DNA of 64,000 bases, taken from contig CAJBEZ010000105.1 in NCBI GenBank assembly GCA_903952205.1, positions 62,001 to 126,000 of the forward strand, given 5' to 3'. A program made the position numbers and the translations under genes. The notes beneath the pieces are model-generated. The model saw only the letters and a list, made by a program, of their open reading frames with translations. It ran no database searches and was not told where the DNA came from. This document shows, one piece after another, positions 1,938 to 14,372 of the stretch. Source of the stretch: an uncultured Desulfomonile sp. (GTDB lineage Bacteria; Desulfobacterota; Desulfomonilia; Desulfomonilales; Desulfomonilaceae). Position 1 is the first letter of the stretch. Each line of letters starts with the position of its first letter.

Positions 1938-2012
1938 GCCGGGGTAGCTCAGTGGTAGAGCAGATGATTCGTAATCATCAGGCCGTGGGTTCAACTCCCA
2001 TCCTCGGCTCCA
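1938..2012 (+). tRNA. tRNA-Thr (anticodon CGT)
   Basis: The cloverleaf can be drawn by eye. The 7-bp acceptor stem pairs GCCGGGG (1938-1944) with CCTCGGC (2002-2008), including one G-U pair. The anticodon stem GATGA/TCATC (1963-1967/1975-1979) encloses the loop TTCGTAA with anticodon CGT at 1970-1972. A T arm with GGTTCAACTCC follows, and CCA is encoded at 2010-2012. CGT reads the Thr codon ACG, and the loop and stems resemble the E. coli tRNA-Thr(CGT). The 3' end overlaps a minus-strand micro-ORF, and accessory genes follow. Confidence 0.95.
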
Positions 2013-2498: not shown

Positions 2499-3725
2499 TT
2501 GCCTGACTATTTTGAGATCACACGCTGTCTCGCTGATCCTGTCACTATTTCACCATGGGTCAGTTCACACATCTTTGAAGACCAATTGCTCGTATTTTCC
2601 GAACGGAGCCAGACCATTTTTGAACTTAATCCTTCGGCAGCGTTCATTTGGCTTTGTTGTGAAAAAGGAATGGCCCTAACTGACATAACGAGAGAAATGT
2701 GTGAAACGTTTAGCGTCAGCGCCATGACGGCTGAATCCGACTTGAATGCAGTTGTCAGTCGGTGGATGTCGATGGAACTTCTTGAAAAAGGACTGGGCGA
2801 GGAAATTGTCCCTCTGGTTATACAGGAAACAGAGGCATCAGAAAATAACCCACTGGTGGGCCAGTGCTATGACCTAAAGATGGCCCCTTACAAAAGTTTT
2901 TGCCTGCGTCTTGCCGGCTTCGATTTTCTTATGCGTTTTTCTCATCAAGAGATTGAGCAATTAGTAACGCCAGTTTTTGCCCATCTGGAATGTTCCTTGA
3001 CTAACCAGCCAGTAATCTTCGATGTAGTCAAGATAGACAATCAGTTCTTGATAGTTAATGACGGCTTAATTATTGATGTATTCTCAAACCCAGCGGAAAT
3101 TACGCCAAGGTTGAGTTATCATGTGGTTGATTCAGCTTACCGGAAGATCGATTTCCTTATAGCTATCCACGCTGCCGCTTTGAGTCTTGGGAATGGTTGC
3201 GTGGTGTTCCCTGGTAATTGCGGAGTTGGCAAGACAACTCTTTCGGCTGCCTTGATCAAGGCAGGATTCAAATATTTCACTGACGACACGGCTATTCTTG
3301 ATCGTAAAACACGTAGTATCGTAGCGGTTCCGGTATGCTTGAGAATTAAAGAGGGCTCGTGGGAAACAGTTGAAGAAATGTTCCAGCAATCTCTATCTGT
3401 CACTGTTCATGGTTCCAGTGATGGTCGTAAAATTAGATACCTTGCGCCACCTGAAGGTAGTTTTGCCCAAGGTATGGTAGTAGGCAACTTTGTCAAGGCT
3501 CTGGTATTTCCAGAATATTCTCCCGAATCAAGAACCTCCATTCAGCCCATTTCCAGGTTAGATGCAGTCCATCGTCTTCAGGAATGTGGTTATGATGTCG
3601 GCGCATGCCTGAACAGAGCAAAGGTTGTTGAACTGTTGGACTGGATCAAGGATGTTGATTGTTATGAAATGAGTATCTGTTCTTTGTCTGAGGCTACATC
3701 CATCGTTAGGAGGCTTCTGGATTGA
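2499..3725 (+). CDS. PqqD-like domain fused to HPr-kinase-like P-loop domain
   Basis: This 408-residue protein has two parts. The N-terminal ~100 residues resemble PqqD, a small winged-helix peptide chaperone that in RiPP pathways binds leader peptides (FELNPSAAFIWLCC followed by an amphipathic helical region). The C-terminal half resembles HPr kinase/phosphorylase-like proteins, with a Walker A loop GNCGVGKTT near residue 240 and YFTDDTAIL after it. TTG codons occur at 2493 and 2499; GAAGGA at 2485-2490 lies 8 nt before TTG 2499, which is chosen. It overlaps the next gene by 4 nt. The substrate is unknown. Family knowledge places such fusions beside small leader-like peptides and nucleotidyltransferases, as here. 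Confidence 0.75.
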   Translation: MPDYFEITRCLADPVTISPWVSSHIFEDQLLVFSERSQTIFELNPSAAFIWLCCEKGMALTDITREMCETFSVSAMTAESDLNAVVSRWMSMELLEKGLGEEIVPLVIQETEASENNPLVGQCYDLKMAPYKSFCLRLAGFDFLMRFSHQEIEQLVTPVFAHLECSLTNQPVIFDVVKIDNQFLIVNDGLIIDVFSNPAEITPRLSYHVVDSAYRKIDFLIAIHAAALSLGNGCVVFPGNCGVGKTTLSAALIKAGFKYFTDDTAILDRKTRSIVAVPVCLRIKEGSWETVEEMFQQSLSVTVHGSSDGRKIRYLAPPEGSFAQGMVVGNFVKALVFPEYSPESRTSIQPISRLDAVHRLQECGYDVGACLNRAKVVELLDWIKDVDCYEMSICSLSEATSIVRRLLD

Positions 3726-4867
3726 ATGCAAGTCTCCAGAGTTTTTTAGTTCTGTGTCAATTCCTTGCTGTGAACCAAGGCACGGAAACTATTGAAAGAA
3801 TACGTCATGAGATCAAGATTGACGCTGTCGATTGGGAATCTATAGTTAAAATCGCCAACCAACAGCTTGTGAGCCCGGCTCTCTGGGTCTCACTTATGAA
3901 TAAAGGCCTTGATGAGGATTTACCTGATGAGCTTAAGTGTTATTTGTCAGGGTTACACAACCTGAACCTTCAGAGAAACATCCTGATCAAACAACAAGCG
4001 GAAGAGATTATAAGAAGCCTTAACGAGATTGGAATTGAGCCGATATTGCTCAAAGGGGCAGCCCTCCTGTTTACAAATGCTTTCACTGATTCTGGAACCC
4101 GCATTATGGAAGATCTCGACATCATGGTATTGGGGAAAGATGTTAAGCAGTCATGGAAAACACTTTCGACCCTTGGATATAGAGCCTGTGATCCTAATGA
4201 GCGGGTTGACGAGCGGAGCCATCATTTGCCCGCAATGATACGTGACAGTGACCCCGCGGCCATAGAACTGCACACGCAACTCTTCGACTGGCATGATCGC
4301 ATAGTGGTCCTGACAGCGGCAGATTGCTTCAAAGAGGCTGCGACAATCAAGACAAAATGTTTGTCTTATAAGGTTTTATCTCTTCCCCATTTCATTATTC
4401 ACAACATACTCCACATTGAAGTGCATCACCTGCATTTTTATTCCGGAAAGCTGTCACTCAGACAGTTGCTGGATTTTGCTGTCATATCCAATCGTCAGTC
4501 ACATGCTATCGATTGGAAATCAATAGAAGATAGAATGGAAGAACACGGTATCAGGCGCATTTATAGGTCTTATCTTTACATGGCTGTTTCTTTGCTCAAT
4601 GCCAGGGTTCCTTGCGCCTTCGGCTTTACAATTGGCAGTAAAATTCACCTTAAGAGGCGTTTCCTGGTTTATGGATCAAATCGTTTACAGGGCCTGTCCT
4701 GGGTGTGCACAGATCCTGTAAGATTATGTCAAATAGTGAAACGAAATCTGACTATCGAGAGGCTGAAAATACTGTCCGGTTATTCGGGTGGGGTAGAGGA
4801 TTTGAACAAAGATCGGCTGAAATATTTGCTTTACCTAGTTAGGAAATATGTGTTAAACAAAAAATAA
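3722..4867 (+). CDS. NTP_transf_5-type nucleotidyltransferase-like protein
   Basis: A 381-residue protein of the uncharacterised nucleotidyltransferase family NTP_transf_5 (PF14907). The diagnostic block lies at about residues 107-140: PILLKGAALL followed by R-x-MEDLDIMV, where the paired acidic residues correspond to the metal-binding site of the polymerase-beta-type fold. The C-terminal half is mostly helical with several His residues (HHLHFY near residue 240). The start is TTG 3722 inside the stop of the previous gene; AGGAGG at 3708-3713 lies 8 nt upstream, giving strong support for translational coupling. Family members often occur with PqqD/HprK-like genes. Neither substrate nor target is known. 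Confidence 0.75.
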   Translation: MNASLQSFLVLCQFLAVNQGTETIERIRHEIKIDAVDWESIVKIANQQLVSPALWVSLMNKGLDEDLPDELKCYLSGLHNLNLQRNILIKQQAEEIIRSLNEIGIEPILLKGAALLFTNAFTDSGTRIMEDLDIMVLGKDVKQSWKTLSTLGYRACDPNERVDERSHHLPAMIRDSDPAAIELHTQLFDWHDRIVVLTAADCFKEAATIKTKCLSYKVLSLPHFIIHNILHIEVHHLHFYSGKLSLRQLLDFAVISNRQSHAIDWKSIEDRMEEHGIRRIYRSYLYMAVSLLNARVPCAFGFTIGSKIHLKRRFLVYGSNRLQGLSWVCTDPVRLCQIVKRNLTIERLKILSGYSGGVEDLNKDRLKYLLYLVRKYVLNKK

Positions 4868-4940
4868 TATTCTTGGCGCAATTGCAGAATTACCATGATG
4901 ATCATGCTTACCGCTAATTAACAGATGGGAGACAAATGCG

Positions 4941-5123
4941 ATGATAGATGAAAAAAAGACACCAGGAAGTGAAGTGGAAATTAATCCGTCAGAAGTGTCA
5001 GATGAGCGGAGGGAGTTTCTCAAAAAATGCGGGAAGTTTGCTGCATATACGGCCCCTGCGATAGCCACTTTACTGTTATTTGACAAAAAGGCGCACGCCA
5101 AAACAAGCTCTCAGGATTACTGA
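4941..5123 (+). CDS. Tat-leader-like small peptide of the PqqD/HprK cassette
   Basis: A 60-residue peptide with an acidic N-terminal half (about residues 1-22), a twin-arginine motif ERREFLKK at 22-29, a short hydrophobic stretch to residue 47, and AHA followed by a seven-residue tail KTSSQDY. Read as a Tat signal peptide, cleavage after AHA would leave almost no mature protein. Similar short peptides with a GKxAxxTxPAxxxLLL core are found near PqqD/HprK-like genes, so it may be the peptide this cassette acts on (inference). ATG 4941 is preceded by GGGAG at 4927-4931. A 13-nt palindrome (CATGATGATCATG, 4894-4906) lies in the 73-nt gap after the nucleotidyltransferase gene. Confidence 0.65.
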   Translation: MIDEKKTPGSEVEINPSEVSDERREFLKKCGKFAAYTAPAIATLLLFDKKAHAKTSSQDY

Positions 5124-5290: not shown

Positions 5291-5695
5291 CGTTTCATTA
5301 CTTTATTTGATAAAATACGCAACCTTCGCAAGGAGGTTACCAAAACCTCCCGCTATTACTTTGTAGATGTTGGCGTTCGTAATGCGCTCATTCGTTCCTT
5401 TGTCCCGCTCTTGGTACGTAACGACGTGGGAGAGCTTTTCGAAAACTGGTTCGTGATGGAGCGAATCAAGCTGGCCAATAACCACCGCCGCTTTACCGGA
5501 TTCTACTTCTGGCGGACGTATGATCAACACGAGATTGATCTTGTGGAGGATCTGGATGGGCGGCTCATCGGATTTGAGTGCAAGTGGTCGCCCAAATCAG
5601 GGGTAAAGGTTCCCAAAGATTGGCTGCGATACTACCCCGAAGCCGGTTTCGAGGTAGTGTCGCGGGTTAATTGGACGGGGTTCCTGGAAGATTAA
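5291..5695 (+). pseudogene. 3' remnant of a DUF4143-type AAA ATPase
   Basis: The open frame from 5291 has no start codon near its beginning, follows a TGA at 5288-5290, and reads directly into the C-terminal domain of DUF4143-containing AAA ATPases: NLRKEVTKTSRYYFVDVGVR, then VRNDVGELFENWFVMER, FYFWRTYDQHEIDLVE and ECKWSP, ending at the family's normal C-terminus. The whole N-terminal AAA module with its Walker motifs (about 250-300 residues) is missing. An internal ATG at 5411 gives a 94-residue frame, but homology extends upstream of it, so this is a truncated gene. No ATPase fragment was seen in the 170 nt upstream. Confidence 0.75.
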
Positions 5696-6008: not shown

Positions 6009-6056
6009 ATCAAGAAGACCGTGGCGGCCAATGCAATAAGGCAAGGACATCTTGTC

Positions 6057-6347
6057 ATGCTAATAAATGAACAAATCAACGAAAAGCGAGAAGAAATTCT
6101 AAGGATTGCAGCGAGCCACGGGGCAAGGAATGTACGAATTTTCGGGTCTGTCGCACGTGGCGACGCTGATGAGTCAAGTGATATTGACTTTCTGGTTGAG
6201 ATGGAACCTAACCGTAGTCTCCTTGACCTGGGGGCTCTACTTACCGACTTGCGGGAGCTTATGGGTCGAAGAGTGGACGTAGTCAGTGAAAAGGGACTCT
6301 ACTGGCTGTTACGCAGACGAATCTTGAAGGAGGCTAAACCTCTATGA
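6057..6347 (+). CDS. mntA: MNT-type nucleotidyltransferase antitoxin
   Basis: A 96-residue minimal nucleotidyltransferase. The motif [19 protein letters not shown] contains the GS-x10-DxD signature of active MNT enzymes, and a third acidic position (RVDVVSE) follows. In characterised pairs MntA neutralises its HEPN toxin by adenylylating a tyrosine next to the HEPN active site. The frame extends up to GTG 6021, but AAGGA at about 6043-6047 lies 9 nt before ATG 6057, matching the usual MNT start. Its end overlaps the HEPN gene by 4 nt (ATGA), the standard antitoxin-first or coupled arrangement of this module. Confidence 0.85.
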
Positions 6348-6706
6348 AAAAGGATCCTCGCGTTTACTTGGCGCAGATTCTTGAGAGGATCGATCGTATT
6401 GTAATGTTTACCGATAAGGGTAAAGATGCCTTTTTTCATGATCTCGTTGTCCAGGACGCTGTAATTCGGAATTTTGAAGTGATTGGTGAAGCGGCGAAAC
6501 GAATCCCTGTTGAATACCGTGAAGCAACTCCGATGATTCCCTGGAAGGGACTGACAAGTTTAAGAGATGTGCTCATTCATCAGTACGAGGGCGTAAGCGT
6601 GGATGAAGTATGGGGAATAGTGGAAAATGAACTTCCAGATATAAGAAAGAGCATAGCATCTATCCTACCTTCTCTTGACCAGTTGGAGCATGAACTTTCT
6701 GAATAA
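6344..6706 (+). CDS. hepT: HEPN (DUF86) toxin of the MNT-HEPN module
   Basis: A 120-residue DUF86/HepT protein. It carries the HEPN RNase motif R-x4-H-x-Y in [13 protein letters not shown] (about residues 87-99), where Arg and His form the catalytic pair and Tyr is the modification site known from characterised HepT proteins. A Shine-Dalgarno sequence AAGGAGG lies about 10 nt before ATG 6344, inside mntA, so the two are translationally coupled. The module sits in the accessory stretch after tRNA-Thr, next to the truncated DUF4143 ATPase. Confidence 0.85.
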
Positions 6707-11389: not shown

Positions 11390-11464
11390 ACGTCGGATTT
11401 GACCAGCTTTAATACGCAAACCTATCCTTGGTTTTCGTATGTAGTGCAGCAGGAGAGAAGGAAG

Positions 11465-12241
11465 TTGACCGAAGACGAAGGAAAGATGTCTTTTCTCGAT
11501 CATCTCGAAGAACTCAGGAAGAGACTGATCCGAGGAGTTATTGCGATTGCTATCGCTTTTGTAATTTGCCTGGCTTTCTCTGAATATTTGTTCAGTTTCT
11601 GGGCTGCCCCGGTAATCAGACTTCTTCCCAAGGATTCATCTCTGGTCTTTACTGGTCTGCCTGATCCATTCTTTGTATATCTCAAGGTTGATTTTATCAC
11701 GGCCCTTTTTATTGCGCTGCCATTTGTTTTGTATCAGGTCTGGCTATTTATTTCCCCCGGCCTGTTGGAGAAAGAGCGCAAATTGGCCGTGCCTTTTGTC
11801 TTCACAGCTACTTTCCTGTTTTATCTAGGCGCTGCCTTTGCTTATTTCATTGTTTTTCCTGCGGCTTTTAATTTCTTTTTGGGGTATTCAACGCCGGAAC
11901 TCAAACCAATGATTGCGATCAGGGAATACATATCACTGGTAATGCTGTTGATGCTGTCGTTTGGTTTGGTTTTTGAAACACCTATTATTATTGTATTTTT
12001 GGGCTTGCTTGGGGTAGTTGATAGCGCATACCTGAAGAAAGGACGGCGTTACTTTGTTGTGCTTGCCTTTATAATAGGCGCGATTTTGACTCCTACTCCA
12101 GACGTGATTAATCAGTCTCTAATGGCAATTCCCCTTTTGCTGTTCTATGAGACAGGGATAATTGCCCTGCGTTTCATGGAGAAAAAACGGGAACGTGAAG
12201 CTCAATTAGAAGAGACGGAAACAGATACGACCGAAGACTGA
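11465..12241 (+). CDS. tatC: Sec-independent protein translocase TatC
   Basis: TatC is the membrane receptor that binds twin-arginine signal peptides. The diagnostic N-terminus MSFLDHLEELRKRL is followed by six membrane segments; other family blocks are PFVLYQVWLFISPGLLEKER and GLVFETPIIIV. The C-terminus is a charged tail. The frame is open from TTG 11399, but AGGAG at 11451-11455 lies 9 nt before TTG 11465, giving a start of the usual type (a few charged residues before MSFLDHL). No tatA or tatB is adjacent. The ABC transporter permease follows 24 nt later. The Tat-leader-like peptide at 4941 is an attractive but unproven client. Confidence 0.92.
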   Translation: MTEDEGKMSFLDHLEELRKRLIRGVIAIAIAFVICLAFSEYLFSFWAAPVIRLLPKDSSLVFTGLPDPFFVYLKVDFITALFIALPFVLYQVWLFISPGLLEKERKLAVPFVFTATFLFYLGAAFAYFIVFPAAFNFFLGYSTPELKPMIAIREYISLVMLLMLSFGLVFETPIIIVFLGLLGVVDSAYLKKGRRYFVVLAFIIGAILTPTPDVINQSLMAIPLLLFYETGIIALRFMEKKREREAQLEETETDTTED

Positions 12242-12265: not shown

Positions 12266-13087
12266 TTGGCGTCCACTATTTCTAGAAGCGGTGGCCTTTA
12301 TATAAACGCCTCATCGTCAGGCAGCAGGTTCAAAAGGTTTTCCAGCCTTTTGAGGGCCCTTGTCGTGCGTGACGTGACGAGCCGGTACAGGCGCTCGTCT
12401 CTGGGAATGTGGTGGGCATTCATTCAGCCATTGGTGCTTATGTTGCTTTTCACTATGCTGAGAGGCTTCGTTGATATTCCTAGCGATGGTGTGCCTTACC
12501 TTCTTTTCAGTTATGTTGGCCTTGTTCCCTGGACATTTTTTACCAATGCTGTTTCCGCATGTGGCCCAAGCATCATACAGAACGCTGAAATAATAAAGAA
12601 GATATCGATGCCCAAGGAAGTTTTCCCGCTCGCCGCCGTTGTTGCGACTCTTTTCGATCTCGCAATGTCCGCGATCGTATTGGCTATTCTCATGATTTAT
12701 TACAAGGTTTCGATAGGAGTATCCATTTTATGGATTCCCTTCCTTGCCCTTCTGATGGTTGGGACAGCGTTTGCCATCGGAATCCTGCTTGCCGGACTTG
12801 GAACATTTAGGAAGGATTTCATCTTCGCAACTCCTTTTCTGACACAGGCGTGGCTGTTTATAACCCCTGTAATCTATCCATTAAGCAGTGTACCCGAAGA
12901 GTGGAGATCAATATACATGTTGAACCCTATGGTCGGGGTGATCGAAGGCTTTCGGGCAGTCCTTATCAAAGGTCAGTCTCCTGAACTGCAACCCTTAATA
13001 TTTTCGGCTCTAATGATGATTGTCATCTTGAGCATTTCCTGGCCCCTTTTCCGAAAGCTTTCGGATTACTTCGCAGATGTGTTGTGA
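12266..13087 (+). CDS. wzm: Polysaccharide ABC exporter, permease
   Basis: A 273-residue ABC-2-type permease of the Wzm/TagG class. After a hydrophilic N-terminus with LVVRDVTSRYRRSSLGMWW, the family motif before the first membrane segment, six membrane segments follow, and PxFR near the C-terminus is also typical. With the adjacent Wzt-like ATPase it should export an undecaprenyl-linked O-antigen or similar glycan. It starts at TTG 12266 with AGAAGGA at 12252-12258, 7 nt upstream. It heads a cluster of glycan-assembly genes that runs to 21.9 kb. Confidence 0.88.
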   Translation: MASTISRSGGLYINASSSGSRFKRFSSLLRALVVRDVTSRYRRSSLGMWWAFIQPLVLMLLFTMLRGFVDIPSDGVPYLLFSYVGLVPWTFFTNAVSACGPSIIQNAEIIKKISMPKEVFPLAAVVATLFDLAMSAIVLAILMIYYKVSIGVSILWIPFLALLMVGTAFAIGILLAGLGTFRKDFIFATPFLTQAWLFITPVIYPLSSVPEEWRSIYMLNPMVGVIEGFRAVLIKGQSPELQPLIFSALMMIVILSISWPLFRKLSDYFADVL

Positions 13088-13094
13088 CCTCTAA

Positions 13095-14372
13095 ATGTCA
13101 AATGATGTGACGATCAGAATAGATGGTTTATGGAAGAGATACGGATTACCCTTCCCGCGTTTTCTGCGTAAGGGCCTGAACCTGATCAAGGGTCGTGGAT
13201 TTGCTTGTGAAGATGATGACCGGTGGGCCCTCAAGGATATTAATCTAGAAGTGAGAAGAGGAGAGACCCTGGGTATAGTGGGCCGCAACGGGGCAGGCAA
13301 GAGCACACTGCTTAAAGTCCTGGCAGGTGTGACCGCTCCAACCAAGGGTAGGGTGGAAATTATCGGCCGCATTTTCCCTATGATAGAATTGAACGCTGGT
13401 CTGAACACGGAATTGACCGGGCGGGAAAATGTTAGACTACTAGGAGCTATTATGGGCCTTTCGAGTTCAGAGGTAGAGCGAATATTGCCGGATGTCGAAG
13501 ACTTCACTGAACTTGGCGACTGGTTTGATCAGCCAGTGCGAATGTATTCTAGCGGAATGTTGAGTCGCCTGGGTTTTGGTGTCGCTGTGAACATCAAGAG
13601 CGACGTGGTGCTCATTGATGAGACTTTCGCTGTAGGGGACCTGAAGTTTCAGAACAAGAGTTTCGCCAAGGTAAAAGAAATGCGGGAAAGTGGAGCTACG
13701 ATTTTACTCGTAAGTCATAGCCTTGAAACACTCCAGTTCGTTGCAAAAAGCGGAATATTACTCGAAAACGGCTCTCTTCTTTTCAACGGATCAGCCTTAA
13801 AGGCCATCAATGCGTATGAAACGCTGGTGTTTCATTCGGAACAGAAGAGATTGGAGCATAGGGTCAGGAGCCGTATAACCAGTGAAGACGTAAATATTTT
13901 TGGAGCAAGGCTGTTTGATGAGAAAGGGGATACCATTACTGAGGTCTCGGCCGGTAGGCCTTTCGGCATAGAAGTCGACCTTCAGATAAACAGAGATCTG
14001 GATCACCCCATGTTTTCATTGGGCATCCTCAACGCTGCAGGGATTCTTTGCAAGTGGAACGTATCTAAAGAGGATGGTCTTGTCGGCCCCGGTCCCCAAA
14101 ATCATTACATACTGCGTGCGTGGTATCCAGAAAACAGGTTGTCCACAGGGGCTTACGAGGCCCACTTTGCAGCCAGGGACGCAGCCTCCTTTGAAACCCT
14201 CGAAAGAATAGCCGGTATAGTAAGTTTTTCCGTGACTGGACCAGAGAGGTCCAGAGGAATAGTCAGAGGGAAAGTCGATTGGCGTTTGATTCCTTTTGAT
14301 GAAGTGAAAGTAAATTCTACTGGCCTGGATTTATGTCCTGAGTCCCGTGTGGAGGAATCGACCACTGGCTGA
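13095..14372 (+). CDS. wzt: Polysaccharide ABC exporter, ATPase with Wzt C-terminal domain
   Basis: A 425-residue ATPase. The nucleotide-binding domain (about residues 5-245) has Walker A GRNGAGKST, signature region MYSSGMLSRLGF and Walker B DVVLIDETFAVGD. The C-terminal ~170 residues form an immunoglobulin-like Wzt_C domain (TEVSAGRPFGIEVDLQI and following), which in known Wzt proteins recognises the modified non-reducing end of the glycan. This matches the methyltransferases nearby, since terminal methylation is a common export signal (inference). It starts 7 nt after wzm, and its 3' end overlaps the next open frame. Confidence 0.9.
   Translation: MSNDVTIRIDGLWKRYGLPFPRFLRKGLNLIKGRGFACEDDDRWALKDINLEVRRGETLGIVGRNGAGKSTLLKVLAGVTAPTKGRVEIIGRIFPMIELNAGLNTELTGRENVRLLGAIMGLSSSEVERILPDVEDFTELGDWFDQPVRMYSSGMLSRLGFGVAVNIKSDVVLIDETFAVGDLKFQNKSFAKVKEMRESGATILLVSHSLETLQFVAKSGILLENGSLLFNGSALKAINAYETLVFHSEQKRLEHRVRSRITSEDVNIFGARLFDEKGDTITEVSAGRPFGIEVDLQINRDLDHPMFSLGILNAAGILCKWNVSKEDGLVGPGPQNHYILRAWYPENRLSTGAYEAHFAARDAASFETLERIAGIVSFSVTGPERSRGIVRGKVDWRLIPFDEVKVNSTGLDLCPESRVEESTTG

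Follow-up and report, generated by a model that had tools for sequence, protein, structure and literature searches.

A fused RRE-kinase, a nucleotidyltransferase and a Tat-like leader peptide form a conserved three-gene unit in Desulfomonile and Alphaproteobacteria

We identified a three-gene unit in a 64,000-nucleotide stretch of DNA from an uncultured Desulfomonile sp. (hereafter, the window), consisting of a kinase carrying a PqqD domain (K), a nucleotidyltransferase (N), and a short peptide (P). The K-N-P unit is real and widely conserved. By analogy with the tailoring enzymes of lasso peptides, it is probably a leader-guided peptide-tailoring cassette, which would phosphorylate a small exported peptide and then add a nucleotide or sugar to it. 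Leader-guided phosphorylation and nucleotidylation of a peptide is consistent with all of the evidence described below.

Results

Organization and genomic surroundings of the cassette

K, N, and P are real ORFs on the forward strand of the window (Table 1). An initial annotation, made from the letters of the window, had named these genes in this order, and both the ORF coordinates and the Pfam and NCBIfam domains agree with it. It had also claimed translational coupling of K and N, which we confirmed: N overlaps the stop codon of K by 4 nt (TTGA), and its start codon, TTG, lies 7 nt after an AGGAGG. K also starts with TTG, with GAAGGA upstream. No terminator was found between N and P when the forward strand was searched.

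Table 1. Positions of the cassette and its sequence features in the window
Feature	Position	Strand	Remarks
tRNA-Thr (CGT)	1938-2012		directly upstream of the low-G+C stretch holding the cassette
K	2499..3725	+	PqqD/RRE domain fused to HprK-like kinase; AlphaFold2 mean pLDDT 86
PqqD / RiPP recognition element (RRE) domain of K	2592..2777	+	PF05402 E=2e-11, residues 31-92
HprK/PEPCK-type kinase domain of K	3156..3716	+	TIGR04352 stretch
His223 of K	3168-3170	+	
Walker A GNCGVGKT of K	3213-3236	+	
Asp261-Asp262 of K	3282-3287	+	
Ribosome-binding site of N, AGGAGG	3709..3714	+	inside K
N	3722..4867	+	NTP_transf_5 nucleotidyltransferase; PF14907 E=7e-44; model pLDDT 82
D-L-D metal-binding motif of N (D131, D133)	4112..4120	+	invariant, 30 sequences
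P	4941..5123	+	60-residue precursor peptide, Tat-like leader; kept in G001 and throughout Alphaproteobacteria
RREFLK Tat-like motif of P	5007..5024	+	RR invariant in alignment of window, G001, and Alphaproteobacteria
Hydrophobic leader stretch of P, FAAYTAPAIATLLLF	5037..5081	+	alphaproteobacterial counterpart FAAVTPPAVTMLLST
A-H-A of P, signal-peptidase-like site	5091..5099	+	AxA kept in relatives
Tail KTSSQDY of P	5100..5120	+	Thr at AxA+2, proposed modification site

The stretch holding the cassette has a G+C content of about 0.44, compared with 0.49-0.54 on its flanks. Together with the upstream tRNA-Thr and a sporadic distribution, this suggests horizontal gain. Mobile insertion at the tRNA-Thr was considered and rejected, as the 3' end of the tRNA has no att-like repeat within the window; a defence system was likewise rejected, as none of K, N, and P had a PADLOC match. 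Beside the cassette, positions 5411-5695 hold what is likely the remnant of a DUF4143-type gene, of which only the C-terminus is left (profile positions 105-160 of 160). Positions 6021-6706 encode an MntA/HepT-type nucleotidyltransferase-HEPN pair (PF01909 and PF01934), likely a toxin-antitoxin module, the first gene of which also matches PADLOC PDC-S09. Further downstream, tatC (11399-12241) lies 6.3 kb from P; behind it come a pair of ABC-type polysaccharide exporter genes (12266-14372) and methyltransferase/glycosyltransferase-like genes.

Structural features of the kinase and the nucleotidyltransferase

We analyzed K and N using AlphaFold2 models built with sequences from the window and related loci alone. 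Residues 14-96 of K match leader-bound TbiB1 over 83 residues at 1.1 A (29% identity, Z 15.5), the best match for the N-terminal domain, and sequence profiles concur. K also matches lasso_PqqD_Strm (E=1e-5), at 25 bits against a cut-off of 70. The remainder of the model matches PEPCK and HprK folds. In the same region, residues 219-405 match HprK_rel_A (TIGR04352, E=1e-24) at 87 bits against the NCBIfam cut-off of 200. H223, K244, D261, D262, and K283 are invariant among the 31 aligned K sequences.

N matches PF14907 at 150.7 bits, above the gathering cut-off of 31.2. K111, R127, D131, and D133 are invariant across the aligned sequences, and the third carboxylate is E182, a position occupied by E or D in 30 of 30 sequences. 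Sequence search detected no solved structure related to PF14907. The model shows a pol-beta nucleotidyltransferase fold at residues 82-302, matching LnuA (Z 11.7) as well as MenT1 and ANT(2''); FKRP is also matched (Z about 8). The family also has another context: on Rhizobium plasmids (L159, 2763-7030), a PF14907-like protein is encoded between genes for a radical SAM protein, for two small proteins of unknown type, and for phosphoribosyl enzymes.

Sequence features of the peptide

P (MIDEKKTPGSEVEINPSEVSDERREFLKKCGKFAAYTAPAIATLLLFDKKAHAKTSSQDY) has no Pfam match and matches an NCBIfam Tat-target model weakly, below the cut-off. Its features are those of a Tat substrate, namely a twin-arginine motif, a hydrophobic stretch, and an AxA site, with TatC encoded in the same genome, inside the window. 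The earlier reading of P as a 60-residue peptide with a Tat-like leader thus stands, RREFLK, the hydrophobic stretch, and AHA all being present. Because only seven residues follow AHA, the peptide has hardly any "core".

The leaders of the window, of its nearest relative (G001, described below), and of Alphaproteobacteria share the RR, a Gly seven residues further, and the AxA site. The alphaproteobacterial consensus reads RRxFLKxCGRFAAVTPPAVTMLLSTSLTSxAIA, followed by x-Ser-Gly-Gly. Ser occupies AxA+2 in 82 of 84 distinct peptides, compared with a Ser share of 11% across the tails, and in the two exceptions the AxA may be misplaced. The pattern used in the peptide scan omitted this Ser, but ranking by best match to a Ser-bearing query favours it. 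At the same position, the window P has Thr; the G001 P has Gly there, its Ser being shifted by one residue towards the C-terminus. The Ser/Thr at AxA+2 might also be part of the cleavage site rather than the substrate. The tails are otherwise Gly-rich, basic, or His-rich, with neither length nor sequence conserved. The initial annotation had made peptide conservation a test of the cassette, and the outcome did not refute it: the leader is conserved from the window lineage to Alphaproteobacteria, whereas the tail is not, apart from the Ser/Thr after AxA.

Distribution and co-occurrence

Full-length fused K homologues were found on plasmids of Rhizobium, Ensifer, Methylobacterium, and Parasedimentitalea. 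Beside these K homologues lie short ORFs that share the leader of P and are annotated, if at all, as hypothetical. Scanning the contig set with K alone gave no match; scanning it with four K-adjacent peptides yielded 78 leader-selected alphaproteobacterial loci. Both K and N directly adjoin P in 38 of these, and in none does only one of them. The other 40 peptides have neither K nor N within the available flank (8 kb or less).

To these unlinked peptides correspond 18 genomes without a linked copy in the analyzed set, 16 of which carry a full-length K elsewhere (E<=4e-65); the other two have weak kinase matches. The background frequency of K was 14 of 150 genomes in a sample of one family, centred on an orphan-peptide genome. 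Within that sample, 11 genomes had peptide matches at E<=1e-6, and K was present in all 11 (Fisher exact p=2e-14, or 3e-12 without two genomes picked via peptides; as the genomes are related, these values overstate independence). P lies within 2 kb of K for 11 of the 14 K genes. The initial annotation had held that rare co-occurrence would make the cassette a coincidence; the co-occurrence of K, N, and P is very strong, and coincidence is not upheld.

Genomes combine several P paralogues with one K. Across about 21 labelled genera, the only widely recurrent neighbours besides P were K and N, which indicates that the core includes no transporter, protease, cyclase, or radical SAM enzyme. In L019, which is more distant, a radical SAM-like gene stands between the kinase and the nucleotidyltransferase. 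In Bradyrhizobium, two arrays (L063, 915-2865; L057, 5187-8495) lack K and N in their vicinity and encode multiple peptides that share the leader but have very unlike tails, among them His-rich ones and Gly/Ser-rich ones with an acidic end.

The nearest relative and the phylum of the window

In a comparison of 18 genomes of the order, K and P were found in the window genome and, apart from it, only in G001, which belongs to the same family but another genus. Its identity to the window over aligned codons is about 50% for K, 43% for N, and 59% for P, and its K and N also overlap by 4 nt. P sits at the start of one contig and K and N at the end of another; because the two contig ends overlap by about 70 bases, with few differences, the K-N-P order is very probably the same as in the window. 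TatC was not found in G001, which is a draft genome. Comparison of the two P genes gave dN 0.29 and dS 3.8, and third positions account for 34 of the 60 differences. This indicates purifying selection on P, in direction only, because dS is saturated. A peptide search of 395 genomes of the phylum gave, besides the window, only weak matches (E>=4e-5), mostly in long ORFs, and leader detection beyond close relatives is accordingly unreliable. The scarcity of matches there suggests that the window and the Alphaproteobacteria belong to different phyla.

Discussion

We propose the following mechanism. As its fold and its linkage to P suggest, the PqqD domain of K would bind the Tat-like leader of P, presenting the tail to the fused HprK-type kinase, which would use ATP to phosphorylate the Ser/Thr just past AxA. 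N may next move a nucleotide, a hexose, or a hexose-phosphate onto that phosphate, as its lasso relatives suggest, and the modified P would be exported by Tat and presumably cleaved after AxA. We propose this two-step chemistry because, according to reviews, the lasso kinases PadeK and PsmK phosphorylate a C-terminal Ser, and the lasso nucleotidyltransferase PsmN puts one or two hexoses on the phosphorylated Ser (PMC9266682, PMC8498205). Alphaproteobacteria probably use one K-N pair for multiple unlinked peptides with the same leader. Taken further, this leads to a tentative idea that we regard as somewhat doubtful: an unrecognised large class of short Tat-exported peptides in Gram-negative bacteria, several per genome and mostly unlinked, which share one leader and would be phosphorylated, then nucleotidylated or phospho-glycosylated, on the Ser by the cleavage site, through a single fused RRE-kinase and a nucleotidyltransferase.

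The enzymes might instead act on something other than the peptide. The leader may merely recruit the two enzymes to the membrane or regulate them, leaving P unmodified, with the true substrate being, for example, a polysaccharide precursor. The low-complexity, unconserved tails of P would fit such a role, and polysaccharide genes lie near several cassettes (L031, L033, L019, and G001); in the window, genes for TatC and for an ABC polysaccharide exporter follow 6-8 kb downstream. We nevertheless consider this unlikely, because no polysaccharide gene recurs across many genera, the several P paralogues per single K are what substrates would show, and the closest enzymes act on peptides. We find it quite improbable that K phosphorylates P while N acts directly on Ser, as an AMPylator/UMPylator or an FKRP-like phospho-sugar transferase, giving a nucleotidylated or sugar-phosphate product. 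The fold of N is of the antibiotic/toxin nucleotidyltransferase type and also matches FKRP, which transfers ribitol-phosphate from CDP-ribitol, but fold similarity does not decide the donor, and PsmN, the sole tested relative reported, adds hexose to phosphorylated Ser.

Two further explanations appear very improbable. In the first, the cassette would be a lasso-peptide cluster whose cyclase and protease were lost or hidden, as the closeness of the PqqD domain of K to lasso B1 proteins and the presence of K and N homologues in lasso clusters might suggest; however, the window genome has no match to the B2 protease family (PF13471), neither cyclase nor protease recurs around the cassettes, and the leader and tail of P are unlike lasso precursors. 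The idea that P is an ordinary Tat-exported small protein and a chance neighbour of two unrelated enzymes is scarcely credible: a Tat-like signal followed by a short tail would suit it, but the same three genes occur together from the window lineage to Alphaproteobacteria, with co-occurrence p values of about 1e-12 to 1e-14.

If leader-guided tailoring of P by K and N is correct, phosphate-primed peptide decoration would be a stand-alone system, more than a curiosity of lasso peptides, spanning the window lineage, rhizobia, Bradyrhizobium, and others. Many of its precursors would be encoded apart from the enzymes and therefore overlooked by genome mining keyed to clusters. The proposal also gives the uncharacterised PF14907 family a role that can be tested, and a natural fused RRE-kinase could serve engineering.

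Comparison with known systems

The initial annotation had described the suggested modification as a system without an established description. This no longer holds, given the precedents of PadeK, PsmK, and PsmN (PMC9266682, PMC8498205) and the HPr-rel-A system of NCBIfam. The tailoring of paeninodin and pseudomycoidin by PadeK, ThcoK, PsmK, and PsmN combines an RRE, an HprK-like kinase, and a nucleotidyltransferase, as in the window. The PqqD domain of K is an RRE of the lasso B1 type, as its TbiB1 match indicates, and K has the catalytic His-Lys-Asp-Asp motif common to lasso kinases (H223, K244, D261, and D262), equated through the published description of that motif (PMC9266682). For N, the likeness to lasso-cluster nucleotidyltransferases lies in Pfam family and context, PsmN being compared by description. 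Homologues of N on plasmids of Paenibacillus and Azospirillum both lie within lasso-type clusters; these nucleotidyltransferases are PF14907 members, and the K profile detects an HprK-like kinase in both clusters. The Azospirillum cluster has annotated PqqD, B2, and asparagine synthetase genes, and that of Paenibacillus cellulosilyticus (L157, 5929-10575) encodes a PF14907 protein, a cyclase/asparagine synthetase, a kinase, and a 64-residue putative precursor with a C-terminal Ser; the record of this locus lists no genes.

The differences are equally clear. Lasso clusters contain a B2 protease and a cyclase, whereas the window cassette has neither: PF13471 has no match in the window genome and one below the cut-off in G001, and no asparagine-synthetase-like cyclase was found among the recurring neighbours or recognised in the ORFs adjoining the window cassette. 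The leader of P is Tat-like, unlike lasso precursor leaders, and the conserved Ser of the P family adjoins AxA, whereas lasso kinases act on the C-terminal Ser. Unlike in lasso tailoring systems, the RRE and kinase of K form a single chain.

The HPr-rel-A system of NCBIfam includes an HprK-related kinase A (TIGR04352) and an "HPr-rel-A system PqqD family peptide chaperone" (TIGR04353). In an HPr-rel-A locus of Vibrio alfacsensis (L035, 5593-8660), the kinase (TIGR04352, 324 bits), the nucleotidyltransferase (PF14907, 143 bits), and a Tat-signal protein are adjacent, as in the window. The putative substrate there, a Tat-type protein of about 270 residues, matches no family and is annotated as hypothetical. 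In contrast, K reaches 87 of the 200 bits set for TIGR04352, its PqqD domain is fused to the kinase and scores 16.5 bits against the TIGR04353 cut-off of 35, and its presumed substrate is a short peptide whose leader family differs from that of HPr-rel-A. K therefore has no formal membership by score, and the HPr-rel-A proteins are close relatives curated by NCBIfam. HPr kinase/phosphorylase (HprK) shares with K the P-loop kinase fold related to PEPCK. It differs in that K matches PF07475 at only 17 bits (cut-off 33.3), has no HPr context, and carries an RRE in front.

Among the open papers searched, none describes the cassette, and PqqD domains are joined to HprK-like kinases or to PF14907 only in work on lasso peptides. 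Compared with these systems, what is new here is a proposed RRE-guided kinase and PF14907 tailoring that is free of a cyclase and linked to a Tat-like leader, with many precursors that are apparently served in trans.
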